Positions 2 to 49,904 of a stretch of DNA of 64,000 nt are shown in pieces. Positions within the stretch are counted from its first letter, which is position 1. Each line of letters begins with the position of its first letter. Location of the stretch: the NCBI GenBank assembly GCA_029057785.1, contig JAIDZC010000038.1, positions 1-64,000 on the forward strand. Direction: 5' to 3'. Position numbers and translations under genes: made by a program. The notes below the pieces were generated by a model. That model had not been told where the DNA came from, made no database searches, and worked only from the letters and a program-made list of their open reading frames with translations. The stretch is from Anaeroplasmataceae bacterium. Lineage in GTDB: Bacteria; Bacillota_I; Bacilli_A; Acholeplasmatales; Anaeroplasmataceae.

Positions 2-3000
2 AAGATTCCTGAAACAGTTGCAACTATAGGAAATTATGCATTCTTACGTAATAGAAAGTTAGATAACCGTTTATATGATTACACTATGGCTATTCCAGCA
101 AGTGTTACAAGAATTGGAAACTGGGCGTTCTATGAAAACTTCTTAATGCGTCATTTTGTTGTAGAAGAAGAGATTGCTGAAGATGGCTCTGTTGTTGAAT
201 CATTAACATATGTCGGCAGAGGTATTCTTGCAGGATGTAGTAGTCTAGAGGATATGGTTATTCCTTATGTTGGTGAATACATTACAAGCTCAGCTGCAAA
301 TGATTCTACATTAGAATGGTACTTTGTAGATTTAGAAACTACTACATGGTCTTATCTTGATACAAACAATCGTACAACATGGTTATATAGTGTATCTTAT
401 GGTTACTGGCATGTAGTGGCTCCTTATTCCTTAAGAGAAGTTACATTAACTAGAGCAACTGCGCTTATGCCAAATGCCTTTAGAGCATTTACTTCCTTAG
501 AGGAGGTACACCTACCAGGTACAACTGAAGAGTTCCCAGTAAAAACTCTTACAACAATTAATAATTATGCATTTTATGATTGTTGTTCATTACAAAATAT
601 TATACTTCCTGATAGTGTAACCTATATTGGTCTTCAAGCCTTCTGGAATTGTGTAACCTTTACAGATATTACAGTTCCAACAAGCGTTGAGACTATGGGT
701 CAACATATCTTTGGATATTGTTCAAATTTAACGAACTTAACCCTTCCATTTATTGGAAATACTGATGCTTCTACTGGTGTCAATGCTACATTTGCATATA
801 TGTTCTATAATAATGCACGTGTTGCGGGTACACATACTTATACAACAGTAGAATTTGCAGATGATGCTAATGGTGGATTTACTCGTACTAAGGTAACAAA
901 ATCTGTTCCTTATGGCTCTTTGACAAGTGTTACTCAATATGCATCTATAGGTGTTAGTGATAAGAAGGTAAGCTTAAATAAGTATACAATTCATACTTAT
1001 ACTACACCAGAAGATATCTTAGAAGAAACTTATGAGACAACTTTAAATTTCACTAATGGTATTACAAGCTGCGTTCCTGCAACTTTGAAATCTCTTACTA
1101 TAACAAATGCATCTAAGATTGGTGTAGGTGCATTAATGAATGTCCCTATGATTGAAACTCTAGATCTTAAGGACAATAGTGATGATCCAGAAGGAGCATT
1201 ACGTAGATTAACTACAATTGATAATGGTGCATTCTATCATATGGGTACAGTTAAGGATTTATTTGTTCCTTCAACTGTGACTACTTTAGGACATTTCTTG
1301 ACTAAGGATTCTTCCTTTGAAAACTTAGTTCTTCCAGCATCCCTTCGTAATGTTGCTGACCATGCATTTGAGAATTCTGATGCATTAAAGAATGTTACTC
1401 TTAAGGGTGAATACCTTTCAGCAGATGACTTTACAGTTATGGGTGCATTTATGTTCCGTGATTGTGATCTACTTGAAAAGGTTACTCAAGAAGGACCAAT
1501 GGAGATTATTCGTACTTATGCATTCTATGATTGTCCTAATTTGAAGTGGTTCAATGGTACTGAAGAAGAAATTGAGAATGACATTTATATTATTCGTATT
1601 GTTGGTGCTGAAACCCTAGAGGATGGTACGAGAGTTCCAGGAACTCAAGTTATTGAACCATATGCATTCAGCTTTAATCCAAATTCTACAGTAACTCCTC
1701 AAATTCAAAGAATTGAAATCAACAAGAGTGTAGTTGCTGAAATTGGTAAATTTGCATTTGCATATCAAACAAATGTAAGTGGTCCTGATGGATTGAAATT
1801 AAATACAAATGTATTAGGTGCATTTGCATTTAAGGGTTGTACAGGCTTGACAAATGTAACTTTCCCTAAGGCAATTCACGTTATAAATGCTGGTGCATTC
1901 TACAACTGTATTAATTTGGAAATTGTAAATTTTGCAGATGATACTGAGGCTTGTAGGCTAATTGATGACTATGCATTCTACAACTGTTCTAAGCTAAGAG
2001 TATTAATCATGCCTGATACAATTGAAGAATTAGGTCAAAATGTATTTGCTAAGTGTTATGAATTATTCTATGTAAAATTCTCTAATAATATTTATAATAT
2101 TAATGACTATGCATTCTATCAGTGTGTTAAGTTAGCTGTAGTTGTTCTACCTTCTGAGTTAAGAGCAATTGGTGCTTATGCGTTTGCAGAATGTATTCAT
2201 TTGGGATATTTAGATGAAGAACAAAAGGATTACTTAAATATTAATCATATTTCTTATGATGAAGAAAAGGTTAAGAAATTTGTTATCCCTGCTAAGGTTG
2301 GAGATCCATTCCCAGAGGATTATCGTCTAGAAGAAAATACAATAGGTATTCGTCCATATGCATTTGCATATTGTACAAACTTAACTTATGTTGATGTACA
2401 ATGTAAGATTTTAGGAGACTATATTTTCGATCATTGTATTAGTCTTGAAACTGCAAATCTTGCTGATGGTTTAACTACAATCAATGTTGCAGCATTTAAC
2501 CATTGTGAATCTTTAGTCAATATTAATAACAATAATGTTGGTGGAGATCCAGTATTAACTATCCCTACAACTGTATTAAATATTGAAGACTTCGCATTTA
2601 ACTATTGTTTAAGTGCAATCGAAGTTATCGTTCCTGAAAATGTTGAACAAATTGGTAAATATGTATTTGCTTATAATAAGCATTTAGAGACAGCTACTGT
2701 AAAATGTGATATTTTAGGAGCTTATATGTTTGCTTATGATGGTGAGTTTAGAGACATTGCAATTAGTAATGAAATCCGTATTATACCAGAAGGTTGCTTC
2801 TATAAATGTAGCAGCTTAAGCAGCATGGTCAACATCGGTAATACAGATATAAGTGATGGTAATACCATAATTCTACCTACAAGTGTACGTGTTATTGAGA
2901 AGGAAGCATTCCGTTATTGTACATCTATCAAGAATTTGATAACACCTAATACTTTAGGCGCAACAGAAGTAGGATTTGAATATGATGGTCCATATCTTGC

Positions 3001-21000: not shown

Positions 21001-24000
21001 ACTTCCAAATTCTACATCTTACCTAGGAGCATATGCATTCAAGGATGCTCATGCTTTACCGATGGTAATTTATGGTGGTAGTGCACTTAAAGAAATTCAA
21101 GAGGGTACCTTCTATAATGCTTACAGTTTAGATACTCTTGCAAGAAATGATTCTAACCCTGCAAAGATTGTAGATGTTTGGGATTCTATTGAAAATATTG
21201 GTGCTAAGGCATTCTTCAACTGTGAATCAATCACTGAAATTAGTGTTGGTATTAAGAATGTTATGATGGTTAATACAATTGGTTATGCAGCCTTTGCTGG
21301 ATGTATAAGCCTAGAAAAAATGACTATTCCATTTGTTGGTAAACAAAGAGTAGCAGTAGAAGAGTCAGCACATTCTGAGGAAACAATCTTCGGTTGGTTC
21401 TTCGGTTCAACTTCAATTGCATCAGAATTGAAGAATAAGATAACTCCTATTACACAACATTATAGTGAGTTAGGTACTTATAATGCTTATATACCTACTT
21501 CAATTAAGGAAGTTAATATTACAAACTCTTTGATTATTCATTATGGTGCATTCTATGATGTTGATTCTATTACAACAATTACTCTTCCTGTAAATATTGA
21601 ACGTATTGATGATTATGCATTCTATAGTATGAATCGTCTTGCTAAAGTAAATTATGGTGAAGATATAGTAGCTAAGAAGCTTGCTCATATTGGTGCTTAT
21701 GCATTCTCTAGATGTATTAGTTTAGAAGGCTTCACTCTTCCAAAGGCACTTACATATCTAGGAGAAGCAGCATTTGCTGAAGATAGAAGTTTAGTTTATG
21801 CAAACTTCGAAGATTACAATGATGTAATGCTACCTTCTATTTTAGATAAGACATTCTATAAGTGTACTGCGTTAAATGAAATGAATTCTAGTGCAGATTA
21901 TACAGTTCGTATTCCAGCTGCAATTAAGCTTATTGGAGAATCTGCATTTGAAGAGTGTACTGCAATTGAAAGTGTATATATCAATACAGTAGAAAGAATT
22001 TTAGACCGTGCATTCTATAAGTGTACTGCTATGGAACAATTAACTCTAACTGCTGATATTGATAATCCAGTGTTATACGCTATTGGTGAGGAAGCATTTA
22101 GATATTGTACTTCCTTAGAGGCTGTAATCGTTCCAGCAAGTGTTGGTGATCCAACAAAACCATTAGCCTTCACAGGAGACTACGCATTTGCAAACAACAT
22201 TAGTCTTACATCTTTAGAATTACGCAATATTGAGTTGAGTAGTCATATGTTTGATACAGCTTCAAGCTTAACACATGTTGTAATCCCAGCTTCAATTGAA
22301 AAGGTTGGTACACATGTATTTGCAAACAGTGGTATTGTGAGCATTGCTGCTTCAGATTTACTAAACAAAGAGATTGGAGAATATATGTTCTACAATAATA
22401 ATGATTTAGTATCTGTTGAAGTTCCTGCACACATTACTAAAATTGACTATGCGGCATTCGGTGGTTGTGCAAGCATTGAAGAAATGACATTACCATTTGT
22501 TGGTGCACGTGCATATACAGCAGATTCTATTGAATCATTATTCGGATATATCTTCGGTCATAATGTTGAATCAGATATGATGCTTGTATATCAAAATCAT
22601 TCAGATAAGGCTGGTGTAAAAGCTACAGTTCGTGATAAGAATTCTAGAACAGTAGAAATATTAAGTGCATATGGATTCTATCTACCATTTGGTTTAAAGA
22701 GTGTTACTCTTCTAAATACAGTGAATACAATTGGTTATGGTGCATTTGAAAATATGGAAATGCTTGAAAATGTAATCTTCAGTGAACAGGGAAGTTCTAC
22801 AAATTCTGGTATAACACTTGAGACTATTAAAGATAAAGCATTTAAGCACACAGGATTATTATCTGTGATTCTTCCAGCAACAGTGAATGTATTAGGTGCA
22901 GAAGCATTTATGAATTGTAGCGATTTAGCTACAGTAAGCTTTGCAGGAAAGAATATCATAGTAATTAATGATTCAACATTTGAAAACTGTACATCATTAA
23001 AATATTGTGATGGTACAAATGAATTTGTATTACATGATGAGATTGCTCGTCTTGGTAATAAAGCATTTAAGAATACAGGTATAGAAACAATTGTTGTTCC
23101 AGCAAGTGTATTATCTGTTGGTGAATCTGTATTCGAGCATTGTCAAGATTTAGTAATTGCTACAATACTAAATGATGTAAATGGTAAAGCAATGTTTAAG
23201 GATTGTATCAGCTTAGATACAGTTACCTTCCATAAGGCTACTACTGTAAACATCATCAGTGAAGAAATGTTTATGAATTGTGAATCCTTAACAGAAATTC
23301 AAATTCCAGTAACTGTTGAACTGATTGATTCTTATGCATTCTATGGTGCAAGCCTAGAATCTCTTGATATACCTGAAAATGTTGAGACAATTGAATCTTA
23401 CGCTTTAGGTTATAATAATTTCAAAGAATTAGTTATTCCTACAAATGTTAAGAAGATTGGTTATTCAGCATTAACAGGATGTGGTGATTTATTGAAGTTA
23501 AAGCTTCCATTCATTGGAACAAATGCTCCAGATACTATAGCTTATAGCACACAATCTGATTCAGAATCACTATTCGGATATATCTTCGGTAGAACTCCTT
23601 ATGATAAGGGTGTTAAAGTTCACCAATTCATGGAAAGATATGTTGAAGCTTCTTTGAATGATCCTGCTGGTCATACTGAAAAGATTCCATTCTTAAATGA
23701 ATTTGGTCAAACTGCTACTTATGAAGAAGAAGGACAAACAATTTATGGTGAAACCTTCTATATTCCATTCGGATTAGCTAAGATTGAGTTCTTTGATAAT
23801 TTCGATAAGATTACAAATGGTGCTATGTCCGGTTTAACAACAGTTTATGATGTTAAGCTACCATACCACATTAAAGAGATTGAAACTGCTGCGTTCAGTG
23901 GTGGTATCAACCTAAGATATATTGATATGCCTAAACCAGCTATCATCTTACATGAAGCAGTATTTGAAAATATGTATGAAAACCCTGAAGAAAATGAAGA

Positions 24001-27000
24001 GTTCTTCATCACAGCAAGCTATGATGTAAATGGTGATAATTTCCCTGAGGGTTGGGTAACAGGTAAAACTATTCCAGTACCTAAGAGATGGCATACTAAG
24101 TATCTAGTAATTTATGAAGAATATGCAGATATCTTCACATATGATTATGATTATGAACATAAGACCTTCCGTATCACTGGTTATACAGAAAATATGCCAG
24201 AGCATGTATTAACACATCGTGATTCTACAGGTAGATTCATTCTTCGTATTCCAGAGACAAAGAATCTACGTCCAATTGTAGAAATTACAGATGAAGCATT
24301 CCTAGATTACTTTGATAATATTCCTGAATATCTTGCTGAATTCAGTAAGAAGTATTCTGATGTCAAATCAGCAGAGCAATTCATGATGAATGGTATTATG
24401 ATTGCAAGAAATGTATCTAGAATTGGTGATAATATTATTACTGGTGGAGATGGTTTCCAAGTATTTGTTTGCAGAACTTCTGAAACAGAAATTTCTTTAA
24501 ATGAAATTGGCAATGGAGTTGAACAAGAAAACAACTACATTGGAGATGAAGCTCGCTGGATGCAAAAAGGTCTAGTGTACTATGGAGAAGATAAAACTTG
24601 GACACTTGCCGATAGAGAAATGTTCCAAATTCTATTGAGTTCTACAGCTATCAGTTTAGACTTGAATAGTCAAGCAGGATTAGAATACAATGAGGATGAA
24701 GGATATTACATCATCTATGCTGGTGAGGACTTCACTCCAAATCCAGTAATTGAATTTGATGTGAATAATCCAAATACTGTTCAAGTTGCAGGAGCAGCTC
24801 TTCCTGAGTATGCATTAACTGTTCCTGGTAAATATGGCGATTTCCGTTCATATTACTGGAATAACCAAAATGTATCCTATGATGCAGATGGAAATGTTAT
24901 TTCCAATGCATGGGTATATGTATTTACAAACAATACAACTATATTTACAAATCGTCCAGTAGCATCATTAGATGTTGATGCAGACTTATGGTGTTCTGAG
25001 ATTATGAATTATGGTTGGGGCTTTGGCTATGTTGAGGATGGAGCAAAGATTTCCTTCAAGATTGTTCAAAGAGAATTAATTGTTAATGTAACTGATTCTC
25101 AAGAATTTGAAGAAGGAGAAATTTGGGAAAATACTGACTGGTCAAGCAATAATACAGCTGTTAAAATTGAAAACTTTGCAACAGCTGGAGAAATGTTCAA
25201 TGGTGATATGCGTCTTAATGCATTAAACCCAACAAAGTCTGAGGTATTGGTTGATGAAGAAACAGGTGAAGTTATTGCTTACACTGATGCTGCAAATCAA
25301 TTTACTTGGGCAGAAAAGTATACGATTACAAAGAATGGTATAGATTTAACAAGTAACTATTATGTAACATTTAATATGGCTGTTACAATCACACCAAAAA
25401 CTGTAATGGTTGCATGGGCAAGAATGAATACAGAATTCGATCTAAGTCGTAGATTTGTATTACCTATCGCTTCAGTAACCTTGAAGCCAGGCTATGATGC
25501 ATATGAGTTATGTCCATTAACTGTTGACCTAATTAGCCGTGGTGAAACAATTTATTCATATCAATGTACATCAAATTATATGACTGCACAAATTGAATTT
25601 GCTACTGCAGGTAGTTATTTGGTTGTAGCTTCTACAACATCTAAGAACTACACATTGATTAATGAAAGAAATGTATTTATCATCGAATTAATCACTGTAG
25701 ATACACCAGTTGTATTTGATCAACTTGTATTTAATCAATTTGAATACATAAATGTAACAATTAGTAATCTATTTGACTACTTTGCTGATCCAGAATGTAC
25801 AGATAGAATTGCATATGTTGAAGATGGCGCTTCTGAAGAGGAAATCGTTGCAAGCTTCCACAATGCAATTTATGAAACAATCTTAGGTGATAAGGAAAGA
25901 CTAGAAGTTGGTGTTTACACTGTCTTTGCAAGACTAAGAGATCAAAACAATTATCAATGGCGTGATTATCGTGCTCCATTATATAGAGAAGATATTTACG
26001 AAATGAAGATAAGAGTTGTTGAAGCTCCAGTTAGAGTGGATTTAACTGATGCAGAATTGACATATCAATTCGATAAGGATGAGTTAAGCTACTCTGTTGC
26101 AGAAACTGTTGATGATGTATACAATGTTGCATTTAATATTACAGTTCCAAATGTTAAGGGGCAATATTCTTACACTGATTTTGCAAGTCTAATTGGTACA
26201 ATTAATGGTGAGGACATTGAATTGAAAGAAGATGGCTTCTATTATACAAAGAATTATCGTTTAGTATTAAGTGGTAATATCAATGTAGTTTATCCATCTT
26301 TAGACAATATGATTGTTTCAGATACTCAAGGTGCTACTTATGATAGTACTATTGAAATTGTTGATGAGGCTGAAATTGAAACAGGCTCTATTATAGATAC
26401 ATATGTAGAGTCAAGAGCTCATGATATTCAGATTATAACTGGTAATCCACAAACTCAAATTCAATTCAGCTTAGATAACGAAATTTGGACTCCAGCTGTA
26501 GCTGGTACTGCCACAACAGAATATGGCTTCACTGAAGCAGGCATTTATACAATTTACTTCAAGGTAACTTGTCCTAACTTTAAGGATCGTATTGGTACTA
26601 TTACATTACGTATCAACCGTGCTCAAACAAGTATAGAACTTGAAAATGCTGATGACTTAAGTAAAGTTTATGATGGCTATGCAGTTGAACCAAAATATAC
26701 TGTAACTGGTAGTCAAAATGATGCAATAGTAACATATCATAAGGAAATTTCAGCAGATGATTCATCAGCTGCTGGAGCAATCCAATATAATGGCAAGTTA
26801 TATAGCTTTGCTGGATTTGAAGCAGCTGTTAACGCAGGAAGCTGGTTAGTTCGTGTATTAGTTGATACAGATGATAACTACCAAGGCTCTGTTGTTTATG
26901 CAAACTTCATTATTGAACAAAAGCATGTTGATATTACATTCAATGAAGAATATAAGTATTCTATTCATAATAAATATGATTATAGTACGACTATTCAATT

Positions 27001-30000
27001 AAATGAGGAAGAAGCTACATATTCCTTCTCATTCGAACTTATTCCAAATACTGCAGGACAATCTTATTCTCTTGCAGCAAATGATTTACGTATCATTGCT
27101 GAAACTCGTAAGGTACTTTTAGGAGAACAAGTACTTGGTCTTGAAAACTTCGATATCAATTATGATATTACAGCAGTTATTCTTAAGGCTGAAGCTGATA
27201 TCCTATTAATTCCTGATGATAAGGCAAAGGATAAAGAATTTGATGGTGCTGAATATGCTAATCCATCTATTAGCACAAATTCAACAGCAGAACCAAGCTT
27301 TGATTACTATACAGTAAATGAATATGGTGTTAGAACTCATATAAATGGTAATCCAGTAGATGCAGGTAGTTATGTATTAGTAATTTCCTTCGAAGAAACA
27401 GAAAATACTTTAGCTGTATCTAAGGAATACACATTTGAGATTACTCCTAAGAAGTTATATATCCAATCTGGTTCACTAAGCCTAGATTATACAGGAGATG
27501 TTGTTCTTCCTGAATTCAAGGTGACTGGTGATATATTAGGTCAATATGAATTAATTGTTGAACTTGCAGATGGTTATGATGGTATTACTGTTGGAAATCA
27601 AATGGTAAATATTCAATTAAAAGAAAATGCATCTAATTATCTTCTTAATATGTATTCAAGAGAATATAAGATTGTGAAGAAAACAGTAGCAATCAGATAT
27701 TCTGAGCGTATGCCTATTAGTGGAGAAAATTGGTATAAGGATTTATCTGACTTCAATAGTTTATTACCTGAGGGTATGACATTTGTTGGTCATTTAGAGA
27801 CAGTAAATAGCACAGTGGGTACTTATACAAGAGTTCCACAGCATATTAGAGTTGTTGATTTAGACATTCTAGATGCAACTGGCACAAGTGTATTGAGCAA
27901 CTTCACAGTAAGCTATGCATTAACTATCAATATTACAAATCCATTAATTGAACATGAAGTTAAGGATGCAACATTAGTTGATGGTGTATGGGAACTTTCA
28001 GTTCCTTACGATACAGAACTTCATTATGCAATTGTTGAACCAGCAATTGAAAATGCTTCAGTTCTATATATCGTTCAAGGTACAAGAACTACAAACCCTG
28101 CTTCCTTCCGCAATACTGTAGATACAGAGATTACTTATATCATTACAGCTCCTAATTATGAAACTACAACTGGTACAATTCACTTTGTGATTTCTCCAGT
28201 TCAACTAGAATTAGAGTTTAAGAATGTAGAAGTAAATGAAGAAGGAAATCCAACAGGTAGATTATATGATGGATACAATACATACTTAGAGTATACTATT
28301 ACTCCATTCTCTGTACCTTCTATCTTGACATTCTACAGAAATGGTAAGATAGCATTTAATACAACTGAAATAGGTGTTTATACAGTAGAAATTGTTGTAA
28401 AAGATACAATGAACTATTTCGGATTTGTAAGAACATTCGAATATGAGATTTCTAGAAATGAAATGCCTTTAGATATTCTTGCTTCTTACGCTATACAACC
28501 ATTTACAGGTAGACCTGTTGAGAATCCTAAAGTATTAGCTCCAATCGAAATAAATGAAGATAATGCAACATTTACATATTATGATGCAGCAGGTAATGAA
28601 TTACCTTCTAAGCCTGTAAATGTAGGTAAGTACTCTGTAACAATCTCTGTAGAGGGTAATGAATATTACTTACCAACAACAAAGAACTTTGCATTTGAAA
28701 TTATTGAATCCTCATTAGTTGTATTCTGGGAAGGTGAGTCAACCTATTACTATAATGGCCTAGCTCAACATCCAACAGCTTATACATTTGATTTGAATAA
28801 TCATCGTATTGAATTAGAAATCACATATGATTCTCTAGGTCAACCAATATTAGCTAAGAATTATGTAGCTACAGCTGTTCTTCCAGAAGGCTTTGAAAAC
28901 TATAAGGTAGTAAATAATTCATTTGAATTCAAGATTTTACCTCGTAATATCAATGTATTAATCTTCAATGATTACGTATTAGTTGCTGATACTGATTATA
29001 CAGCACAGATTACTGAAGCAAGTAATTTAGCTTCAGGAGATATCATTACTCTTGAATATCGTCTAGCAGCTGCTAAGCGTATTCGTGGTAGTGTATATAA
29101 TAGCATTAATGATATCATAATTGATCACTTAGCAATTTTATCAGGTGATGAAGATGTTACAGATTCTTATGCAATTCATTATAGTGTTCATTTAGAAGTA
29201 TATCTACCTAGAATTGAGTATCAATTTGTTGGTGCTGAATTTGATGGTCTAGAATATGTATATAAGAAGGATTATGATGGAATTGCACTTACTCCAGAGC
29301 TAGAGGTATTCACTGAGGCAGCTGAAGGAGAAGAATTAATCATTGAATTTAATCCAGTTGACTTTATTGATTCTGGTAAGTATTCTCTTCCTTATAGAAT
29401 CCGTATCGGATATTATGAGGATGATCAATTCATTCTTACTCATGAACCAGTTATGGGTACAGTTCGTGTTAATATCGATCGTATTGAATACAAGATTGAA
29501 GTAACAGAAGAATTGTCTAAGCCTTATGATGGAGTACAAGTATTCCCTAAGATTTCTGTAAATGACATTATGAGAAGTGATGCTGAATTCCACTTCCCAT
29601 GCTTCATTGACTTCTATCAAAGTGATATATTGTTAGATGGAGCTCCTGTAAATGCAGGTAAGTATACAATCGTTATCACAGTTTATTCTTCTGGTAACTA
29701 TAAGACAACACAATACTCATTAGAATTTGAAATTTCAAAGGCTATGAGTGGAATTACATTAAATAATGATGAAACCAGTCTATATGATTATACTAAGCAA
29801 TATAATGGTGAAGCATTCACTCATGCAGTTAGAGGTACAAACAACTCTGCTAACCTACAATATGAGGTTATCGGTGATGGACATGTTGAAGTATGCTACT
29901 TTGATGCAAATGGTCAACGTATTTCTGCTCCTGTAAATGCTGGTATCTACTATGTTCAATTTGTTGTTGATGAGACCTTAAGCTATCAAGCTTATGTATC

Positions 30001-32044
30001 TCCAAAATATACAATTGAAATCACAAAGATTTTCATCTTCGTAGGTACTACAGATTATCATTACACTAAGTATTATGATGGTGAGAGAGTATCTGTTGAT
30101 GTAAGCCAGTTCACAATTCTAAAACAAGAGTTCATTATGGAACAGCTTGGACAAACAGACTTCTTTAACATCGTAGGTACTACACTTGTTGAAGATGTAA
30201 ATTCTCGTTTCGCATTATCTGGATTCATTTATACTGCATCAGCTAGTCAAGGTGTATATTCCTTCGGTCCTGATTTTGATACAACTCATATCATAATTAC
30301 AGATGCAGAAACAGGTGAGGATTTAACAAAGAATTACCAAATCTATGCATTATGTGATATAGAGATTAAGGCAGAACAGGTTGAAGTAACTTGTGATGAT
30401 GTTGTTGTTGATTATGATGGCAATGCTTATACAATTGATCCACGTCCAGCTAAAAACATTAAGGACTATGAGGTTCTATATAGCTATGATGGTGTATTGT
30501 ATCAACATACTCCAATCCGCTATGCAGATTGTGGTGAATATACAATTTACTATAAGCTTGTATTTGAGAACTATGAGGATGTAGAGGGATCTGCAACATT
30601 GACAATCAATAAAGTAGATACTGCTACACTTCAAATCATTGGTTCTTTAGATAGTATTTATACTGGATTTGCAGTTAAAGATCCTATGTATAGTTCAAAT
30701 ACAATTGGTGAAGTAACTTATACTTGGTATCAACTTGTAAATGGCGACTATGTAGAGGTTGAATCTGCAATTCATGTTGGACATTATAAAGTTAAGGTTA
30801 CTCTTGCAGAAACTCAAAATTACTTTGGTACAGATGCAGAGTTAGCATTTGAAATTACACCTAAAGAAGTATCAATTGGTTGGGTAAATACAGAGTTAAC
30901 ATACACTGGTTCTGCTCAATATCCAATTCCATATTTCGTTGGTGGTATTGCTGATGATCTAGAGATAGTAGTAACTGTTGATGGTGATGCTACTCAAAGA
31001 GGTACATATACAGCTCATGCTAGAATTAATGATATGTATGGTGATTATATAGTTGATGAAGCTAGTGCTCAAACAACTTATACAATCTCTCATAAGCTTG
31101 TTGATGTTCTTGCAACTATGGAAAGAGATTATACTGGCCGTGATATTCAAATTAATGTTAACAAATACTATACTGCTAGTCAGTCAAGTGTTCGTAATGT
31201 TGGTGAATATGAAATTACAGTAGCTCTATTAGATAAGGACAACTACAAGTGGAAGGTAATTTCTGCCGATGGTACTTATGAGATTACAGATTCAGAGGAT
31301 ATGACAATAGTAATGACAGTATTACCTGCTGATATCAACAATGCTGTATTTGCTGCAATTGCTGATCAACCTTATACTGGTAAGGCAATTACACCTAAGA
31401 CAACAGTATCCTTCAATGGTATTAACTTAGTTCAAGGTGTTGACTACGAGTATAGTTATGAAAATAATATAGAAATCGGCACAGAAGCTATCGTTAGAAT
31501 TACTGCTTGTGAAGGTGGTAATTTCAAGAATAGCCATGATGTATTCTTCACAATTGAGAAGACTACAATCGGTGTTGCAGAAGGCTCTGGATATGAGTTC
31601 ATCTATGCAAAGACTTCAACAACATTTGAGGCTGATGAACATAAGATCTATTCTGCTTCTCGTAGAATCATCATTAACAATGTTTCTGCCAATACAACAA
31701 TTGAAGACTTCCTAAATAACCTAACTAAGAAGGATAATCAAGAATTTGTGGTATATAATGCAAGTGGTACTCTTGTAAGAGATACGCAATATAAGATCCA
31801 ATTAGTAGGTACTGGATTTAGAATTCAATTAAAAGAAGGTAACTATGTTAAGGATAATGTTTATGTATCTGTAATCGGTGATTTAACTGGTGATGGTTTA
31901 ATCAATGCAAATGATACAACAAGAATCCAAAGACATTTATTAGGTACTTCAAAATTAACAAATGAAAATCTATTAGCAGCCGATGTAAATCGTGATGGTA
32001 AAGTAGATTCTGCTGACCAAGCTGCTCTTAGACAGTTATATTAA
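2..32044 (+). CDS. Giant BspA-type LRR_5 / MBG-repeat surface protein with C-terminal dockerin (5'-partial)
   Basis: The reading frame is open from base 2 to a TAA at 32042-32044, giving 10,680 residues without the missing N-terminus. The ATG at 86 lies inside a leucine-rich repeat and is not the start. Residues 1 to about 8000 are LRR_5 (BspA-like) repeats built on IGxYAFxxCxxLxxVxIP, broken about 24 times by a PFxG...FGWIFG module and by several non-LRR inserts. A junction module follows (about 8000-8340), then MBG/YDG-type Ig-like repeats (about 8340-10520), a pre-dockerin module (about 10540-10626) and a dockerin whose two calcium loops start at D10627 and D10661. LRR_5 proteins of this family are extracellular and often linked to adhesion, and dockerins bind cohesins. 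Role here, inferred: a secreted fibre-like adhesin or structural protein docked non-covalently to the cell. No LPxTG motif, C-terminal membrane helix or catalytic domain was seen. Its promoter and signal peptide lie outside the window. Confidence 0.93.
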   Translation, partial: KIPETVATIGNYAFLRNRKLDNRLYDYTMAIPASVTRIGNWAFYENFLMRHFVVEEEIAEDGSVVESLTYVGRGILAGCSSLEDMVIPYVGEYITSSAANDSTLEWYFVDLETTTWSYLDTNNRTTWLYSVSYGYWHVVAPYSLREVTLTRATALMPNAFRAFTSLEEVHLPGTTEEFPVKTLTTINNYAFYDCCSLQNIILPDSVTYIGLQAFWNCVTFTDITVPTSVETMGQHIFGYCSNLTNLTLPFIGNTDASTGVNATFAYMFYNNARVAGTHTYTTVEFADDANGGFTRTKVTKSVPYGSLTSVTQYASIGVSDKKVSLNKYTIHTYTTPEDILEETYETTLNFTNGITSCVPATLKSLTITNASKIGVGALMNVPMIETLDLKDNSDDPEGALRRLTTIDNGAFYHMGTVKDLFVPSTVTTLGHFLTKDSSFENLVLPASLRNVADHAFENSDALKNVTLKGEYLSADDFTVMGAFMFRDCDLLEKVTQEGPMEIIRTYAFYDCPNLKWFNGTEEEIENDIYIIRIVGAETLEDGTRVPGTQVIEPYAFSFNPNSTVTPQIQRIEINKSVVAEIGKFAFAYQTNVSGPDGLKLNTNVLGAFAFKGCTGLTNVTFPKAIHVINAGAFYNCINLEIVNFADDTEACRLIDDYAFYNCSKLRVLIMPDTIEELGQNVFAKCYELFYVKFSNNIYNINDYAFYQCVKLAVVVLPSELRAIGAYAFAECIHLGYLDEEQKDYLNINHISYDEEKVKKFVIPAKVGDPFPEDYRLEENTIGIRPYAFAYCTNLTYVDVQCKILGDYIFDHCISLETANLADGLTTINVAAFNHCESLVNINNNNVGGDPVLTIPTTVLNIEDFAFNYCLSAIEVIVPENVEQIGKYVFAYNKHLETATVKCDILGAYMFAYDGEFRDIAISNEIRIIPEGCFYKCSSLSSMVNIGNTDISDGNTIILPTSVRVIEKEAFRYCTSIKNLITPNTLGATEVGFEYDGPYLADYIFANCENLLEADIQGAYLGNYMFANCYSLERVTIGGIADDPDQVITKIPAGAFYRCSSLTTVNTEDELNVNPSVQTIEEYAFAQCSSITELYLPISLQYIESSAFSGCKSLISVHIPFVGAERGDITEYAEEQGLFGWIFGETDYYILENYTATTYKASYGQMTQEEKDDTIEEQIISAMKAYFAGIAGFDATVEPTVTTKNSVTTYVLTFGDYTVTAVATSVKKNTTTTITVEISGVQEVEEQEERFTPSGATTKLVYVVNSFDVTTTPDVEGGSIIVTTYYKVDIYESVCADSDLTYSMKDIEDYIKEKSFDMMYDYLPDISASEISILPEVFDEEGKLVVRYGISTRNLVAEAAIVDYYELFAEITRVFDEATKKVNVKIVINSKHHYQRIDEGDLEETITDYYPVGVLTEYQLSYIPDTAYTASEIYYAEGNTISYVFPNSLVNVTIYDESIIDFGAFMNMSYLTHVSINPEILQIRDYAFYMNYNLKEFNGDYVFTGASPFAELPASLVAAMPEELLYIGDYAFYIEPSKHKSYFLELALNDKVEYLGSYAFYGWNSITTLDVPASVNEIGTHTFAYNTDLVTVRNHSNVFGAYMFSHDEALTTFNSSVDDIIVIGSQYLEENMPKHIFEFCDSITALDIQNGYIADYMFYQCRNIPEVYIRPSVTKIGTGAFAKNVSLTDVYYTAAFDYNTYLNPKTDADGKLVSILDAEALKNANILTYYSVDDTTFILEGYKTYTYGGMAQNTDKSNVESIGAFAFQETLISAFDVPQTTTYIGEGAIKGCRNITFIYMPFIGSSIGNQNVLDATFGWIFGRLFLDGETLSHPKATLVSEGIDNGYDDKETYDLLTDTSLFYPITQSYTNVHTATFFLPVGLKTVIITKETIVGRGAFYNCTELDHIWLPQDSLRQIQHEAFYNCTNLREMLIPNQISSILENTFAKCASLEFIQVPYVGKSASANGIDSVFGVLFGTEEYDGSYPALQLYQKEDKQEQSTEYEYGVIRYYIPETLKMVVIPNTRMNTIPFGAFSNCSQIERIEISGNVRYIGAYAFFNCTNLYDYKKDEDENHPIGFPETILEIGEFAFSGCVSMPDMILSPVLQKIGRYAFQDMTITELYVPNTTIEIGENILKGCYNLETLSVPFIADRLVEPTVETEVLGHFFGTSKEYLENLYQYLQFHQYLYFDVYGEKLNEKQIATLFGIPTDVTDIIFNNYMTADIKYRQYVQILLTGIYEEEFFNEYYYFAEELGVEYALPKSLKNLYITNAPHIADEACANAKELVNVDLSYSNELVYIGNGAFINNTALVNVYLPADVTMDEDGERYALNKEENPSTVLDWIGDDAFRNCTNLSHIQLDTCSELESIGSYAFAGSDEVRSTLSYVTIPVSVTEVGEYAFAYNGLKDIEILNNYIGDHMFYENDQLVELVVPTLQIPGRVSFIGDYAFAECDLLEDLTLTEGLDRLGNYMFYNDDSLRVVVVPQSINKDSGSCADYVFAECSGLEKATILNNKIGNYMFAHAAEPGEELTEEDSHLRVVIWDVDSIEQLGTGAFMNCTLLDYLASVGDDAGELDESKRGILKAPTSSMVDAIGDKTFYNCKAFTSIVIPGNIATIGISAFEGCRGVLTITFDENGQLTDIKQNAFKDNWLVKEIVIPETVKHIGYGALNGESMLESLTLPFIGAQESLNVTTEGLFGYIFAGPEYYNSYEIRQHFINNEGDLDDSVVVTYIPKGLKKVIIADDEVISYGAFNGCSSLEEVLLPDNVKHIYKNAFLDCSGLTHIEIPASVETIGDSAFENCYDLQKITFLTESDGKTALRTMGNRLFTNCRSLTELTIPNTLQTFGSYEDENHVGGEMFSGCINLQSLTLPFIGSKAGNSGTEDSLFGWMFGTTPIPFYKDVKNEWVYNTLNTPYTSHEEAIAAAIEAGKTSEDVFEYKGNYYVQGYQTRSLADFMLTTAGIYKDTESNTIYAYRKDYGYDTVAELRARWGNRLYLQIDGKYYARYVVTLETSTTAFDSLTELQEAYGEDALYVLEAGKYYVQYPTSLNFLSDHCYIMNHYKMDNYLQVTGNNADYINFYVASQRYSDETIEKNYILPTSLTYVNFTMETVVGYGALMRCDSLTTVNFYETLTKAYVDDSGNVFEIVVDADGNEITASNPMSKTNLLEIHDYGFYENRERIIRYLEEDVQKTKTLSGLMYINSIDVLYEGNMETINVCIPENVYYIGNHAFDQCDSIISLYIPVAVTDIEAYSFANEDGLRRIVLANDILGEYQFFNCDGLEELIVPANITEIRTHAFYDCDALIDITIRTAYLGQYMFAHCDALETIVIPECVTISEFEGAPVGEYAFAYSHMLHDITIENAFITNYMFYDCTNLKYMDVTNNSSNELTTIGYAAFGSCDTLETLIVPFVGAHIYTGDSKESLFGWIFGEDPKNNHGMIKDSYHVDTLNPYDESQDSEENEKSILVRQGFKVATPSEDEDTFEFESVYYDFYIPMSLRNVKIINNKKIKETIVGTGAMMNLKQIENAWFEQIVEVKDYGFYGCLNFVNANHGTLTHNGFDETSVLENAFDFETAINKIGHYGFARCISLENLIIPKNVRSIGTYAFAYCKELENIVFKDAANIRDGIEISDYMFYFDYSLVNVDCTEYVSSIGYAAFGRCLELTELSIPFVGAHRFVSNSKESLYGYIFGEELLTLDKDEEGNYIALKEFDEAYADYLIDYAEQISELTEDEKRVYGITDIVQSYDNGIHNYTFYIPSKLATVNILVDTTIGVGAFMNTSMLRNVNYQTVERILDYAFMNSGIKNINYTPDVKLSFTEDAIDSAIKLGDSVYYVGNYAFYNCDNIINVIIPESIDRYNPENLGTHVFANSSSVENVDFLNNLIGAYMFAQDEFETETSALTNLTINASVSQSTSVQSIRPYAFMNNDNLKNITFLNNIIGEYMFYDCDGLETVDTTNGNTNAMKEINYAAFGSCDTLDTIYIPFVGKHKYEGDSKESLFGWIFGEESDSIDALAEAVYNTLYEKEIEEVLIPQLREEFSGVITDITQLRAVAISRLDRDTARLAELREQSKKEVVFDDDSLTRAHQSYDGTHYYDFYIPTSLKHVILTGDTTIGFGAFMDCTTLESVLLPETLEVIMPYAFDGCTSLLRIVVPGNVYEIGQYAFNNNISMLTAEIEAAKAGQQKLLQIINRGTFRNCYKLDDFLIPVTIKTVGRYAFENCISLSSIEFPESVTTIDDDAFYGCRSLTEVVVPNTVTKIGYAAFGQCTGLTALSLPFVGSYQYQVGHDGFENLYGYIFGDGSNRETNSDGSIATEIKNFTPAGKSVAYSYENGLDETLGTPVMMTEADLKAYIKANTNAELDGLTDVYSDTNLFRIPTALVKVTVTLDTVIADYAFENVSMLKTFDSETVTSIHNYAFHNCTSLVSMNANGDKVINIHDGLTEIKDHAFDGCSSIVSLVIPQSVGKETEIGSYIFAYCTGLKEIDFQNGIIGEYMFSHCTGLEHLTIPNTIETVEDYAFEYCTGLGTKDYSDEDFLEDKLIWENGEDGRATDSVYKKCSIKLENKVIGTGMFRHCYGIKVMNIPDNIEEVGYGAFDACMNMLSMRIPFAGKQRLTVTTTLNSDGETYTAVQNSMGKEYLFGWIFGETLENLDTLEFNQTDTEYIVKQCYYMTTKTGNLTADEIPFTSECKRDQGVDENGFFTFRIPNCLKQIYISDNCDVIGHGAFMFNKNVETFHVPKGNVYIGMYAFYMSGINSVDLPESNISIGDGAFQGTDLVEIIIKNGIISPYQFADSTKLRKVTILSKIINIGEGAFAGCISMEELVLPFVGKNYNDRSGLSATDKHLGYLFGSITEADGSPVEGTYKVEQHYSTTQTRAYYVPKTLKKVEITNDTQISMGAFEGCESIECVILPEYRELNGQKLPFTTIGAYAFANCLNLKGAHYRNHDNANGVAGTVVNHYDYYARYNNLIELAAAYRVFTYVDVVDNKYHVRGPEIILNPGEEEPSISSYVKVEQSDGTFKFYETTETAYETLEDLLSAQESTKDIVWDIHEENGAQYIYEPSKKFITLYDLQIAYGEQVVYFRVENEELYDENTIQYLRIPTYTSTIGNYAFANCKALETVLFMGTSTLPTNAMGNKWIFEGEEVDILTSMSNSVFRHCSSLANLVWGYDNLEYDNGFVNNSYGIKFDNHITSLGEYSFYNTGGTTVTIHENIESIATHAFASSAKVQKIVLENELIGAHMFDNCDTLEEVTIPVQITTVGNYAFANCDMLTRVDVQNAVIGNYMFYKCLKLKNVDTEYISNNGVKYTEKLEEIGYGAFSGCSNLESMTLPFIGKSASSNDTFEGLFGYIFGHTQVAGSYAAKQTYTLGAVSKTVPVCKNDICTTETISASGVQNGFTFYIPTKLKRLHITTITSLGFGCLMDVQIASISWDAITEIGDYAFYDADGVQYINSGSNLINEILIENVTAVGNYAFANMDRIDKVTLPVSLSDASQIGDYVFAYNGQLDTIDIQNKILGDHMFDSCATLEEINIPADVDTIGTHAFANCATLNVLNLNNHLVGEYMFFNCDSLVNVEIPNNILTIGYGAFGASNNITSMKLPFTGKHAYDANGNKFEHLFGYIFGHKDDAVESMYKIYQTYGSSAVSQTVNVDVDATTTLNPQYTFYLPKGLSRVEITNGTILGEYAFVNVDVHSDDEESKLDTIILPEGLLEIKEYAFDNCNLLASINIPKSVGSIERYAFKDCLSMKTINYNPQTVGQQNYKLTSISEGTFYNCYSLEELEILPTIRVIGDYAFYNCKNEMVTDVVVHELVKEIGYGAFGGCINLENITLPFVGKRAYTEDKTEKEELFGWIFGEKRTIFPILYTSNTNNYPEYNAVTQNDSDLNRYIFYIPKKLKTVTLTNAETIGAYAFINVSQLTNVYLPDNLIKIKEHAFENCQGLLEITIPSKVTTILTEAFKNCTSLGTVNFKTNVIEEISKRLFYNCTSLTTVNSVDNNGNNLQQQFPQSVTKISEQAMFNCKSLPNFIVGEHIESLEAGIFGGCIELTELTLPFIGATRTAAPKAGEPTDETFGYIFGYYVTELGELNNFTNIQNYTSLYVANQNGNAYYIPTKLAKVTVTDDSDIRAYGFANVNKLQTIVLPNDGYHSVTGAEEAFTEIGAHAFESCSELVRVVNTNSDLTKAEIELPETITTIGDYAFNECVKLPYMIFPSEITTVGSYAFRNCVELQEAIFEGNKIDTLSEGVFYNCIELNEFNFPTSILHVKSYAFYNCIDLDEITVPKNVLDIDYAAFGGCHNLVEMTIPFVGQDREDDQNSNATAFGWIFGGVVVGHSINTPSALYEVRQNTRTHLVPTKLTKVTITDVDTIVDNAFINVSKLETVILPKGYGYAPHPAVTDAADQKPFVRIGSSAFENCTSLTVITDGETLADGSYINQFPVTTTTIESGAFRNCSSLPTIIITENVEEIGDYAFEKCSVLNNVLFKTRELEAINEGVFYDCCALTTMTYLNESGLEVGDENVITILDTITSLGSVAFYNCSSATTIIVPENVDTVGYKVFGRCINLNSLTIPFVGDVNTHPCDYTDKALTYDGSNKVLGYLFGFTSEPQEGMHEIRQYYNATQYVDAYIPTNLTEMALTNTEVIHYGTFYNVDTITTITLPSNLKVIEGYAFYNDNVDHISSLTTVIGDMNESLTTIGEHAFENNIVLKQFNSDEDRVIIPNKVITLNDYAFNNCNAITYLEIPESVGTGDGVVGEYVFAGTDSLAELVIKNHWIGAHMFDNLDNFPDDFRYENVYEYPKLAEVTIPACVTRIDEYAFANNEKLSKVNIYNKVLGDYQFYNCPRLTSIQIPDKVEHIGEGALGDCISLVEIWIPFVGEHAYTADGRNAVLGYIFGTKSKYSDAVSEQGAYVVATEQMIGSGSTETFYIPTALKIVHVTNDKAIGYGAFSNCAGLTTITLSEERISDDATSGYFESIGDYAFANCESLGMKVLDPTQYTELGYFELPNSTSYLGAYAFKDAHALPMVIYGGSALKEIQEGTFYNAYSLDTLARNDSNPAKIVDVWDSIENIGAKAFFNCESITEISVGIKNVMMVNTIGYAAFAGCISLEKMTIPFVGKQRVAVEESAHSEETIFGWFFGSTSIASELKNKITPITQHYSELGTYNAYIPTSIKEVNITNSLIIHYGAFYDVDSITTITLPVNIERIDDYAFYSMNRLAKVNYGEDIVAKKLAHIGAYAFSRCISLEGFTLPKALTYLGEAAFAEDRSLVYANFEDYNDVMLPSILDKTFYKCTALNEMNSSADYTVRIPAAIKLIGESAFEECTAIESVYINTVERILDRAFYKCTAMEQLTLTADIDNPVLYAIGEEAFRYCTSLEAVIVPASVGDPTKPLAFTGDYAFANNISLTSLELRNIELSSHMFDTASSLTHVVIPASIEKVGTHVFANSGIVSIAASDLLNKEIGEYMFYNNNDLVSVEVPAHITKIDYAAFGGCASIEEMTLPFVGARAYTADSIESLFGYIFGHNVESDMMLVYQNHSDKAGVKATVRDKNSRTVEILSAYGFYLPFGLKSVTLLNTVNTIGYGAFENMEMLENVIFSEQGSSTNSGITLETIKDKAFKHTGLLSVILPATVNVLGAEAFMNCSDLATVSFAGKNIIVINDSTFENCTSLKYCDGTNEFVLHDEIARLGNKAFKNTGIETIVVPASVLSVGESVFEHCQDLVIATILNDVNGKAMFKDCISLDTVTFHKATTVNIISEEMFMNCESLTEIQIPVTVELIDSYAFYGASLESLDIPENVETIESYALGYNNFKELVIPTNVKKIGYSALTGCGDLLKLKLPFIGTNAPDTIAYSTQSDSESLFGYIFGRTPYDKGVKVHQFMERYVEASLNDPAGHTEKIPFLNEFGQTATYEEEGQTIYGETFYIPFGLAKIEFFDNFDKITNGAMSGLTTVYDVKLPYHIKEIETAAFSGGINLRYIDMPKPAIILHEAVFENMYENPEENEEFFITASYDVNGDNFPEGWVTGKTIPVPKRWHTKYLVIYEEYADIFTYDYDYEHKTFRITGYTENMPEHVLTHRDSTGRFILRIPETKNLRPIVEITDEAFLDYFDNIPEYLAEFSKKYSDVKSAEQFMMNGIMIARNVSRIGDNIITGGDGFQVFVCRTSETEISLNEIGNGVEQENNYIGDEARWMQKGLVYYGEDKTWTLADREMFQILLSSTAISLDLNSQAGLEYNEDEGYYIIYAGEDFTPNPVIEFDVNNPNTVQVAGAALPEYALTVPGKYGDFRSYYWNNQNVSYDADGNVISNAWVYVFTNNTTIFTNRPVASLDVDADLWCSEIMNYGWGFGYVEDGAKISFKIVQRELIVNVTDSQEFEEGEIWENTDWSSNNTAVKIENFATAGEMFNGDMRLNALNPTKSEVLVDEETGEVIAYTDAANQFTWAEKYTITKNGIDLTSNYYVTFNMAVTITPKTVMVAWARMNTEFDLSRRFVLPIASVTLKPGYDAYELCPLTVDLISRGETIYSYQCTSNYMTAQIEFATAGSYLVVASTTSKNYTLINERNVFIIELITVDTPVVFDQLVFNQFEYINVTISNLFDYFADPECTDRIAYVEDGASEEEIVASFHNAIYETILGDKERLEVGVYTVFARLRDQNNYQWRDYRAPLYREDIYEMKIRVVEAPVRVDLTDAELTYQFDKDELSYSVAETVDDVYNVAFNITVPNVKGQYSYTDFASLIGTINGEDIELKEDGFYYTKNYRLVLSGNINVVYPSLDNMIVSDTQGATYDSTIEIVDEAEIETGSIIDTYVESRAHDIQIITGNPQTQIQFSLDNEIWTPAVAGTATTEYGFTEAGIYTIYFKVTCPNFKDRIGTITLRINRAQTSIELENADDLSKVYDGYAVEPKYTVTGSQNDAIVTYHKEISADDSSAAGAIQYNGKLYSFAGFEAAVNAGSWLVRVLVDTDDNYQGSVVYANFIIEQKHVDITFNEEYKYSIHNKYDYSTTIQLNEEEATYSFSFELIPNTAGQSYSLAANDLRIIAETRKVLLGEQVLGLENFDINYDITAVILKAEADILLIPDDKAKDKEFDGAEYANPSISTNSTAEPSFDYYTVNEYGVRTHINGNPVDAGSYVLVISFEETENTLAVSKEYTFEITPKKLYIQSGSLSLDYTGDVVLPEFKVTGDILGQYELIVELADGYDGITVGNQMVNIQLKENASNYLLNMYSREYKIVKKTVAIRYSERMPISGENWYKDLSDFNSLLPEGMTFVGHLETVNSTVGTYTRVPQHIRVVDLDILDATGTSVLSNFTVSYALTINITNPLIEHEVKDATLVDGVWELSVPYDTELHYAIVEPAIENASVLYIVQGTRTTNPASFRNTVDTEITYIITAPNYETTTGTIHFVISPVQLELEFKNVEVNEEGNPTGRLYDGYNTYLEYTITPFSVPSILTFYRNGKIAFNTTEIGVYTVEIVVKDTMNYFGFVRTFEYEISRNEMPLDILASYAIQPFTGRPVENPKVLAPIEINEDNATFTYYDAAGNELPSKPVNVGKYSVTISVEGNEYYLPTTKNFAFEIIESSLVVFWEGESTYYYNGLAQHPTAYTFDLNNHRIELEITYDSLGQPILAKNYVATAVLPEGFENYKVVNNSFEFKILPRNINVLIFNDYVLVADTDYTAQITEASNLASGDIITLEYRLAAAKRIRGSVYNSINDIIIDHLAILSGDEDVTDSYAIHYSVHLEVYLPRIEYQFVGAEFDGLEYVYKKDYDGIALTPELEVFTEAAEGEELIIEFNPVDFIDSGKYSLPYRIRIGYYEDDQFILTHEPVMGTVRVNIDRIEYKIEVTEELSKPYDGVQVFPKISVNDIMRSDAEFHFPCFIDFYQSDILLDGAPVNAGKYTIVITVYSSGNYKTTQYSLEFEISKAMSGITLNNDETSLYDYTKQYNGEAFTHAVRGTNNSANLQYEVIGDGHVEVCYFDANGQRISAPVNAGIYYVQFVVDETLSYQAYVSPKYTIEITKIFIFVGTTDYHYTKYYDGERVSVDVSQFTILKQEFIMEQLGQTDFFNIVGTTLVEDVNSRFALSGFIYTASASQGVYSFGPDFDTTHIIITDAETGEDLTKNYQIYALCDIEIKAEQVEVTCDDVVVDYDGNAYTIDPRPAKNIKDYEVLYSYDGVLYQHTPIRYADCGEYTIYYKLVFENYEDVEGSATLTINKVDTATLQIIGSLDSIYTGFAVKDPMYSSNTIGEVTYTWYQLVNGDYVEVESAIHVGHYKVKVTLAETQNYFGTDAELAFEITPKEVSIGWVNTELTYTGSAQYPIPYFVGGIADDLEIVVTVDGDATQRGTYTAHARINDMYGDYIVDEASAQTTYTISHKLVDVLATMERDYTGRDIQINVNKYYTASQSSVRNVGEYEITVALLDKDNYKWKVISADGTYEITDSEDMTIVMTVLPADINNAVFAAIADQPYTGKAITPKTTVSFNGINLVQGVDYEYSYENNIEIGTEAIVRITACEGGNFKNSHDVFFTIEKTTIGVAEGSGYEFIYAKTSTTFEADEHKIYSASRRIIINNVSANTTIEDFLNNLTKKDNQEFVVYNASGTLVRDTQYKIQLVGTGFRIQLKEGNYVKDNVYVSVIGDLTGDGLINANDTTRIQRHLLGTSKLTNENLLAADVNRDGKVDSADQAALRQLY
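3430..4330 (+). other. Non-LRR insert of about 300 residues inside the LRR array, possibly a tandem alpha/beta module
   Basis: The LRR pattern stops after the FGWIFGET motif near 3420 and resumes at the VNVTIYDESIIDFGAF segment near 4350. The two most similar-looking segments (about 3500-3745 and 3895-4175) each start with an amphipathic helix and continue with three or four beta strands. No known family was recognised. The helix-then-strands order is reminiscent of PepSY-like or cystatin-like folds, but that is only an impression. Confidence 0.5.
8690..9290 (+). other. Non-LRR insert A with four short alpha-beta mini-repeats
   Basis: After the FGWMFGTT motif the LRR pattern gives way to about 200 residues carrying a unit of 30-40 residues four times. 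Each unit has a short helix of the type SLxELxxAYG followed by a strand ending GKYYVxY. Examples are DSLTELQEAYG, TVAELRARWG with IDGKYYARYV, and SLADFMLTTAG. The LRR pattern resumes at the ILPTSLTYVNFTMET segment near 9290. The same unit occurs in insert B at 14870-15300. Confidence 0.55.
12016..12250 (+). other. Helical insert inside the LRR array
   Basis: About 78 charged residues follow an FGWIFGEES motif and precede the next FYIPTSLKHV segment. They are rich in Glu, Arg, Leu and Ala in heptad-like spacing (for example RLDRDTARLAELREQSKKE), which suggests helix or short coiled coil in an otherwise beta-solenoid region. No family was recognised. Confidence 0.5.
14870..15300 (+). other. Non-LRR insert B with three alpha-beta mini-repeats
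   Basis: This interruption of the LRR array holds three copies of the mini-repeat also seen in insert A: NLIELAAAYR followed by NKYHVRG, TLEDLLSAQE followed by AQYIYEP, and TLYDLQIAYG followed by a VYFRVE strand. A Glu/Pro-containing linker separates the first two. LRRs resume with the TSTIGNYAFANC segment near 15310. Confidence 0.5.
24000..25020 (+). other. Junction module between LRR and MBG/YDG parts of the megaprotein
   Basis: The first part (about 24055-24280) contains DIFTYDYDYEHKTFRITGYT followed by an LRIP strand. It matches in order and spacing the DVFTYTYVITEKRYYITGIT then LRIP segment of the second giant protein at about 35926-36135. The rest has LRR-like remnants and beta-rich sequence of no known family. 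Because both paralogues carry it at the same place, it is probably a structural adaptor between the solenoid and the Ig-like string. Confidence 0.55.
25020..31560 (+). repeat. MBG/YDG-type Ig-like repeats of the megaprotein
   Basis: About 14-18 diverged units of 80-130 residues each begin with a YDG-like element and Pro (for example VYDGYAVEPKY, FTGRPVENPKV, TYTGSAQYPIP, PYTGKAITPK). They continue with a YYxxDG strand, an AGxYxVxV strand and a closing FxIxPxxIxxxW strand. This is the pattern of MBG/YDG bacterial Ig-like domains, which act as spacers in surface proteins. Copies differ enough that no recent expansion is evident. Confidence 0.8.
31620..32041 (+). other. Pre-dockerin module and dockerin of the megaprotein
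   Basis: A small alpha/beta module (TTIEDFLNNL, then VGTGFRIQL and a VYVSVIGD strand) leads directly into a dockerin. Loop 1 is DLTGDGLINAND (residues 10627-10638) and loop 2 is DVNRDGKVDSAD (from residue 10661). Both keep the Asp/Asn calcium ligands at positions 1, 3, 5, 9 and 12, with Thr at position 3 of loop 1. The protein ends with RQLY straight after the second helix. Type I dockerins bind cohesin domains in a calcium-dependent way. Confidence 0.85.
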
Positions 32045-32102
32045 TTAATACTTTTGATGTCCCAAAATGTCAAAAGAAGAGGTGCTTAATTCCTAAAGAA
32101 GG

Positions 32103-32140
32103 GGTCCGTCGGAACATTATGTTTCGATGGACCTTTTTTT
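32103..32140 (+). terminator. Strong intrinsic terminator after the megaprotein gene
   Basis: Arms GGTCCGTCGGAAC (32103-32115) and GTTTCGATGGACC (32121-32133) form a 13-bp stem with two G-U pairs and an ATTAT loop, followed by seven T residues. It lies 58 bases after the stop codon, so the next gene should need its own promoter. Confidence 0.92.
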
Positions 32141-32310: not shown

Positions 32311-32338
32311 TTGAAAAGTTTATTGAATATCTTTTCAA
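32311..32338 (+). promoter_or_regulatory. Operator-like inverted repeat around the -35 box
   Basis: Perfect 8-bp arms TTGAAAAG (32311-32318) and CTTTTCAA (32331-32338) flank a 12-base spacer that contains the -35 box. The right arm falls between the -35 and -10 boxes. The arm centres are 20 bp apart, close to two helical turns, which would suit a dimeric regulator. In such AT-rich DNA an 8-bp palindrome can also occur by chance. Confidence 0.4.
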
Positions 32339-32351
32339 AATAAAGTATAAT
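32323..32351 (+). promoter_or_regulatory. Sigma-A type promoter of the second giant gene
   Basis: A -35 box TTGAAT (32323-32328) and a perfect -10 box TATAAT (32346-32351) are exactly 17 bases apart. Transcription would begin near 32358, leaving a leader of about 94 bases before the ATG. The upstream terminator makes an independent promoter here necessary. Confidence 0.75.
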
Positions 32352-49850: not shown

Positions 49851-49874
49851 CATTAAATGTTTCGGCATTTAATG
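49851..49874 (+). promoter_or_regulatory. Hairpin between the second giant gene and the membrane-anchored gene
   Basis: A perfect 9-bp inverted repeat, CATTAAATG and CATTTAATG, encloses the loop TTTCGG. It is followed by AGATATCTTTT and ends 30 bases before the ATG at 49905. It could be a weak terminator, an RNA processing site or a stabiliser of the downstream mRNA. A wider repeat, GGTAGAAT (49801-49808) and ATTCTACC (49836-49843), lies just upstream. No convincing promoter was found in 49780-49904, so the downstream genes may depend on read-through. Confidence 0.45.
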
Positions 49875-49894
49875 AGATATCTTTTAAAATTGGT

Positions 49895-49899
49895 GGAGG
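49895..49899 (+). promoter_or_regulatory. Ribosome binding site deciding the start of the membrane-anchored gene
   Basis: GGAGG lies five bases before the ATG at 49905. The in-frame ATG at 49857 has no such site, lies inside a hairpin arm and would add 16 residues (MFRHLMRYLLKLVEEI) before a typical Lys-rich signal peptide. The ATG at 49905 is therefore preferred. Confidence 0.8.
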
Positions 49900-49904
49900 A
49901 AATT

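Follow-up and report, generated by a model that had tools for sequence, protein, structure and literature searches.

The largest known bacterial proteins come from Omnitrophota and Chlorobium, and known leucine-rich repeat (LRR) proteins of the BspA type are far shorter than the giant of approximately 16,317 residues described here. Giant adhesins of the LapA type are under c-di-GMP control through LapD. The cohesin fold and the dockerin are parts of cellulosomes, and clostridial cohesin-dockerin pairs link enzymes. BspA proteins, those of Mollicutes among them, are described as lying on the cell surface and serving cell-cell adhesion (PMC10557491). In Apilactobacillus kunkeei, the proteins Giant1-5 (3,000-8,000 aa) carry an N-terminal beta-solenoid and have diversified mostly by intragenic recombination (PMC12863079). 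A survey of huge proteins notes Dockerin_1 among them, in higher proportion in Planctomycetota (PMC11573180), so giant surface proteins as such are already known from these two sources. A dockerin has been recorded in an Acholeplasma single-cell genome, and that source names cohesin only in another lineage (PMC10266427). The open-licence literature searched holds no description of the giant reported below, or of a cohesin partner in this order.

The window, meaning the whole stretch of DNA analysed (64,000 nucleotides), opens contig C32 (109,931 bp) in the genome of an Anaeroplasmataceae gut bacterium (1.757 Mb in 44 contigs, 97.7% complete). On its forward strand, which carries all features given below, one frame is free of stops from base 2 to the stop codon ending at 32044, a run of 10,680 codons. 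The longest stop-free runs in the other five frames over the same stretch are 54-135 codons; with the other frames so soon closed and GC at 33%, the long frame is not an effect of a composition poor in stops. The window starts where its contig starts, at base 1, and for this reason the frame lacks its 5' end there; the visible part of the giant surface protein (2..32044) accounts for 10,680 of about 16,317 codons. The sequence-only reading had described a 32-kb open frame with a missing N-terminus, not of low complexity and with diverged repeats. Both points hold: the 5' part sits on contig C7, and Tandem Repeats Finder reports no more than two short arrays, of 35 and 33 bases, across the window, so the repeats of the giant have indeed diverged.

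A Pfam search of the same genome yields a second long LRR_5 frame, about 5,610 codons, that runs off the end of C7. The reverse strand of that contig shows, in order, a tRNA-Asn, a Shine-Dalgarno-like sequence, an ATG and a basic, hydrophobic start; the start codon and signal-peptide-like sequence that the earlier reading proposed to seek upstream are thus both located. A basic start with a hydrophobic stretch, resembling a signal peptide, is found at the N-terminus of the giant in six genomes. Joining C7 to C32 with no gap, a join at which frame and repeat phase fit by chance, was ruled out: the orthologue in genome G003 has 27 extra residues where the two contigs would meet, and a contig of genome G008 (approximately 90% DNA identity) reads through the break in frame, its two alignments lying 81 bp apart when measured from the precise ends of C7 and C32. 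The 16,290 residues seen (1,815 kDa) plus these 27 give a full protein of approximately 16,317 residues, about 1.8 MDa. The visible part had been put above 1.1 MDa, and the full length is half again as long. The placing among the largest class of bacterial proteins needs care: this is not the largest kind, as larger proteins are reported in Omnitrophota (a remark in PMC11573180).

Independent copies occur in related genomes. The C-terminal 681 residues, used as a query, match in 6 of 10 relatives of the same genus; the other four give no match to this query, so the giant is not essential to the genus. Complete frames on single contigs are present in three genomes of the genus, G003 (16,336 aa), G007 (16,497 aa) and G005 (16,204 aa), and in G052, from another genus of the family (17,165 aa). 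The copy in G006 is shorter (12,479 aa), and those in G002 and G008 are fragments. Of the 65 segments of 250 aa into which the protein was divided, 65 are matched in G003, 64 in G007, 64 in G005, 62 in G052 and 55 in G006, with rank correlations of position of 1.000, 0.999, 0.981, 0.984 and 0.777 and median segment identities of 80, 36, 36, 35 and 30%, respectively. These colinear matches mean that the order and number of modules are conserved, G006 excepted. Comparison with G008 gives dS 0.322, dN 0.037 and dN/dS 0.116 over 11,740 aligned codons, out of 16,290 seen; residues from about 9,570 to 14,135 fall outside the G008 contigs used. The value of dN/dS is 0.051-0.224 in all 24 windows (up to about 500 codons each), which bears out, in each of them, the earlier suggestion that selection keeps the whole frame open. 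That the gene is real, and encodes one protein of about 16,300 aa, is strongly supported; the protein is probably secreted. As a separate observation, dS against G008 is not even along the gene: about 0.5 where the protein begins, it drops to 0.14-0.23 towards the C-terminal end, a pattern that an exchange of part of the gene with a nearer strain might leave.

The whole protein comprises approximately 13,600 residues of BspA-type LRR, approximately 2,500 residues without clear Pfam assignment, and a Dockerin_1 tail. The LRR region (LRR_5, PF13306) takes up 2..23971, residues 1 to about 7,990 in the window, as recurring modules whose spacing is kept in relatives. Two 5,000-aa pieces score 1410 and 1091 bits with PF13306, above the Pfam cut-off, and a loose LRR-core motif, counted 177 times up to residue 13,650 of the giant vs 37 in shuffles, is absent beyond it. 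Repeated beta-rich domains follow (23972..31591), which on our own reading are probably Ig-like; the Pfam scan of this stretch gives no family above cut-off, the best being WxLIP_HBD, below cut-off at E 9e-4. The protein closes with an X-dockerin tail (31592..32041), supported by alignment A6 and an order-wide search, in which a conserved domain of approximately 85 residues precedes a two-loop dockerin. A well-formed dockerin had been noticed here from the letters, and the Dockerin_1 match (PF00404; 31877..32032, E 3.4e-13, 2.6e-14 and 1.7e-14 in separate scans, 54.2 bits vs a cut-off of 22.9) agrees. The calcium-loop aspartates of both loops are invariant in the sequences of nine tails from three families. 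At E 1, PF00404 finds one match in the genome. Further LRR_5 proteins of the genome are L020 (on C10) and L091 (on C28), in frames of 1,525-2,463 codons.

Downstream of the giant gene lie a hairpin with a T run resembling an intrinsic terminator (32096..32140; three such found in the region, 0.6 expected) and a weak promoter-like TTGAAT-17-TATAAT (32323..32351; 8 found, 5 expected), ahead of a second giant of 5,775 aa with a signal-peptide-like start (32452..49779). The second giant has LRR_5 in its N-terminal fifth (to 35874) and, beyond that, repeats without Pfam assignment. Its dockerin-like tail (49249..49776) has no Pfam match of its own, and the corresponding tails in three relatives match profile A6 (E 6.6e-14, 1.7e-13 and 6.5e-11). 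Next comes a protein of 2,597 aa with a signal-like start (49857..57650; the start is likelier at 49905, after GGAGG), here called the partner. It consists of a cohesin-like domain (50013..50847) with a helical insert of approximately 110 residues predicted by the model after the first strand, a beta-sandwich stalk (50850..57500) in which four stretches pass as Cadherin-like PF12733, and, by sequence, a C-terminal transmembrane helix with a basic cytoplasmic tail (57504..57647). The following gene (57665..60664) encodes a membrane protein with GGDEF and EAL domains (EAL E 1.2e-55); its GGDEF motif is degenerate, EAL residues that look catalytic are kept, and the coiled-coil-like stretch behind them gives a CEP63 match below cut-off. 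Two lipoprotein-like proteins complete the window, one with a single Big_3 match (60773..61888) and one with Big_3 domains (61909..63999) that continues beyond the window end to 1,497 aa in all. In G007 and G005, the EAL gene and a small protein are followed by a secreted membrane protein of 3.1 kaa (L075, L076); a Big_3 lipoprotein-like gene stands at that place in the present genome.

Assignment of the partner's first domain depends on structure. Its model has a mean pLDDT of 69, low in the middle and <50 in much of the domain. The top two Foldseek hits in the PDB are both cohesins, a C. perfringens cohesin-FN3 construct and a C. thermocellum scaffoldin (E 2.0e-5 and 1.7e-4). VIA-align, with the same low-pLDDT model, places cohesins at eight of the nine chains with Z of 8 or more, seven of the eight at rmsd 3.1-3.6 over 131-145 residues. 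Non-cohesin rows stand just below the cohesins (PrgB at 8.3, integrin up to 7.9), and a best Z of 7-8 commonly occurs with this method, so the call of a cohesin fold is moderate. A model of the homologue L081 reached a pLDDT of 43 and was discarded. PF00963, the Pfam cohesin, does not match the domain even at E 10, and therefore the partner is named cohesin-like only; in the whole genome PF00963 finds nothing at E 1. No cohesin came up among PDB sequences searched with profiles of this domain, and hhalign gave no link between profiles A5 and A7 and, for A7 with A8 (made from two G107 Pfam cohesins and a cohesin-like stretch of G104), 21%. The modelled fold suggests that the domain may be a cohesin in function.

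At E 1e-8, profile A6 of the tail matches in 29 of 160 genomes of the order, or 20 of 88 when good genomes alone are counted; the longest frames that carry it have 17,173 codons within the family and 6,771 outside it. The downstream genes were read at 16 further dockerin genes (dockerin sites outside this reading include G061, G071, G080, G105, G038, G040, G048 and G075 C64). In families f3 and f5, a same-strand secreted protein comes next after the dockerin gene in 13 of 13 loci with a separate readable gene (G064, G066, G068, G069, G073, G075, G083, G086, G089, G095, G100, G101 and G107). The downstream protein ends in a membrane helix and basic tail in G073, G068 and G069 and does not in G107, the ends of the remaining ones lying beyond the stretch read. 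In G104 a single frame holds the dockerin together with a stretch that is cohesin-like at E 0.008, below the cut-off; in G002 the second giant comes next, as in the present genome; and a short dockerin gene on G006 C70 is followed by a secreted protein of 913 aa. By BLASTP, 12 of 14 downstream proteins match the partner at E 1e-3 or better, through its stalk repeats and not its first domain. The first domain of the G107 downstream protein is a Pfam cohesin (PF00963, E 1.4e-9, 38.7 bits, cut-off 24.1); eight other proteins of the same scan and six more gave no PF00963 match over cut-off. In this G107 protein (L103), two Pfam cohesins precede cadherin-like repeats, and the C-terminus is unlike the repeats and has no membrane helix, perhaps through a frameshift. 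A GGDEF protein follows in G068 (E 2e-7) and G069 (E 9.5e-6), as an EAL protein does here. Beside the largest giant of G052 there is no partner, and a dockerin/partner pair is on another contig. Contig C26 of that genome (L086-L088) encodes a further LRR protein, of 12,863 aa, in which no dockerin was seen and which ends in a membrane helix of its own, another way of anchoring a giant.

Sortase (PF04203) has no match in the genome, in a search that was positive in three Gram-positive controls, and is found in 1 of 100 relatives (G018). Sortase is reported as largely lost in bacteria of this order, and peptidoglycan genes as present in 40-60% of Anaeroplasmataceae genomes (PMC10868615). The idea that a wall-less cell is the reason for a membrane anchor was dropped, since the genome has peptidoglycan gene matches over cut-off, three to transpeptidases and six to Mur ligases.

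It would appear, and we consider it probable, that the locus encodes secreted giant adhesins that stay on the cell through cohesin-dockerin pairing with a membrane-anchored partner. The giant would consist of a signal peptide, a long BspA-type LRR solenoid offering binding surfaces, an Ig-like stalk and a C-terminal dockerin. With calcium, that dockerin would bind the partner, the product of the second gene downstream (49857-57650), at its cohesin-like first domain, and the partner's stalk and transmembrane helix would fix the complex to the membrane. The second giant (32452-49779), with its related tail, may dock likewise, and giant adhesins could in this manner be displayed without sortase. 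The adjacent GGDEF/EAL protein may couple display to c-di-GMP, as gene order suggests. Membership of the BspA family points to the role in adhesion, while pairing and anchoring are consistent with the dockerin, the gene order, the fold match and the absence of sortase together. It is likely the neighbouring anchor, to which the sequence-only reading had drawn no link, that gives the dockerin its meaning.

Four other explanations compete with this docking model. A frame this long, in a metagenome-style bin of 44 contigs with a contig break inside the gene itself, might be an artefact of assembly or binning, through repeat collapse, chimera or genes run together. We regard that as extremely improbable, because complete single-contig copies exist in three genomes of the genus and in G052, their 250-aa segments are colinear with ours (65/65, 64/65, 64/65 and 62/65), and the G008 contig crosses the break in frame; the independent copies in effect refute it. 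A real giant might still be a polyprotein from which cleavage after export releases many LRR adhesins, and the recurrence of LRR modules with spacers would suit this. The Pfam scans show no protease domain, however, and a polyprotein has no need of a module order and number fixed over long divergence, which makes the proposal very improbable.

The dockerin is open to two further interpretations. Dockerin and cohesin fold are what cellulosomes are made of, and the giant might serve mainly to bind substrate for digestion in a reduced complex of that kind. This we find improbable: Pfam scans of the window proteins show no glycoside hydrolase or CBM, and where a cellulosome has several dockerin enzymes and a cohesin scaffoldin, the genome has a single dockerin match at E 1 (PF00404) and none to PF00963. 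It is less far-fetched, though still unlikely, that the giant is released or loosely held, its dockerin being a relic or binding some cohesin-like protein other than the neighbour. The genome has no cohesin at sequence level, and in G052 the partner and the largest giant are unlinked, both of which fit this view; but calcium-loop residues invariant in nine tails from three families, dN/dS that stays low right to the end of the giant, and an anchor-like neighbour of the dockerin gene kept across families all speak for docking to the partner.

Three features are new, as far as the literature searched allows: such a length in a BspA protein, a module order that is conserved, and an anchor paired with the giant. 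The colinearity of a 16,000-residue repeat protein from one genus to another, with purifying selection in every part measured, argues that such giant genes are neither idle nor unstable. In an order largely without sortase, docking is a concrete and testable answer to the question of how large surface proteins are held, and if true it would give cohesin-dockerin pairing, a means of enzyme assembly, a new place in the display of adhesins. Tentatively, and with less confidence than in the docking itself, we suggest that sortase-free docking display may be old in the order, beside a c-di-GMP protein, and that the position of each module in the solenoid of 16,300 residues may carry function.

Several described systems resemble this one in part. 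As with LapA and LapD, a giant adhesin gene lies near a membrane protein with degenerate GGDEF-EAL, but the phylum is another and the anchor different. The best structural matches of the partner domain are the C. perfringens GH84C cohesin (2w1n) and clostridial cohesin-dockerin pairs (6kgc, 4fl4), and as in those pairs the dockerin is on the other member; unlike them, a giant LRR adhesin would here be joined to a membrane anchor, and the likeness has no sequence match. BspA-type proteins (PF13306), as described from Trichomonas and Mycoplasma (PMC10557491), share the repeat family and the setting at the surface of host-associated microbes, whereas here the module order is fixed over genera and a dockerin tail is added. 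Giant1-5 of A. kunkeei (PMC12863079) are likewise consecutive giant extracellular genes, several percent of a small genome, with a signal peptide and long repeats; in contrast to the recombination described there, the modules of the Anaeroplasmataceae giant stay colinear.
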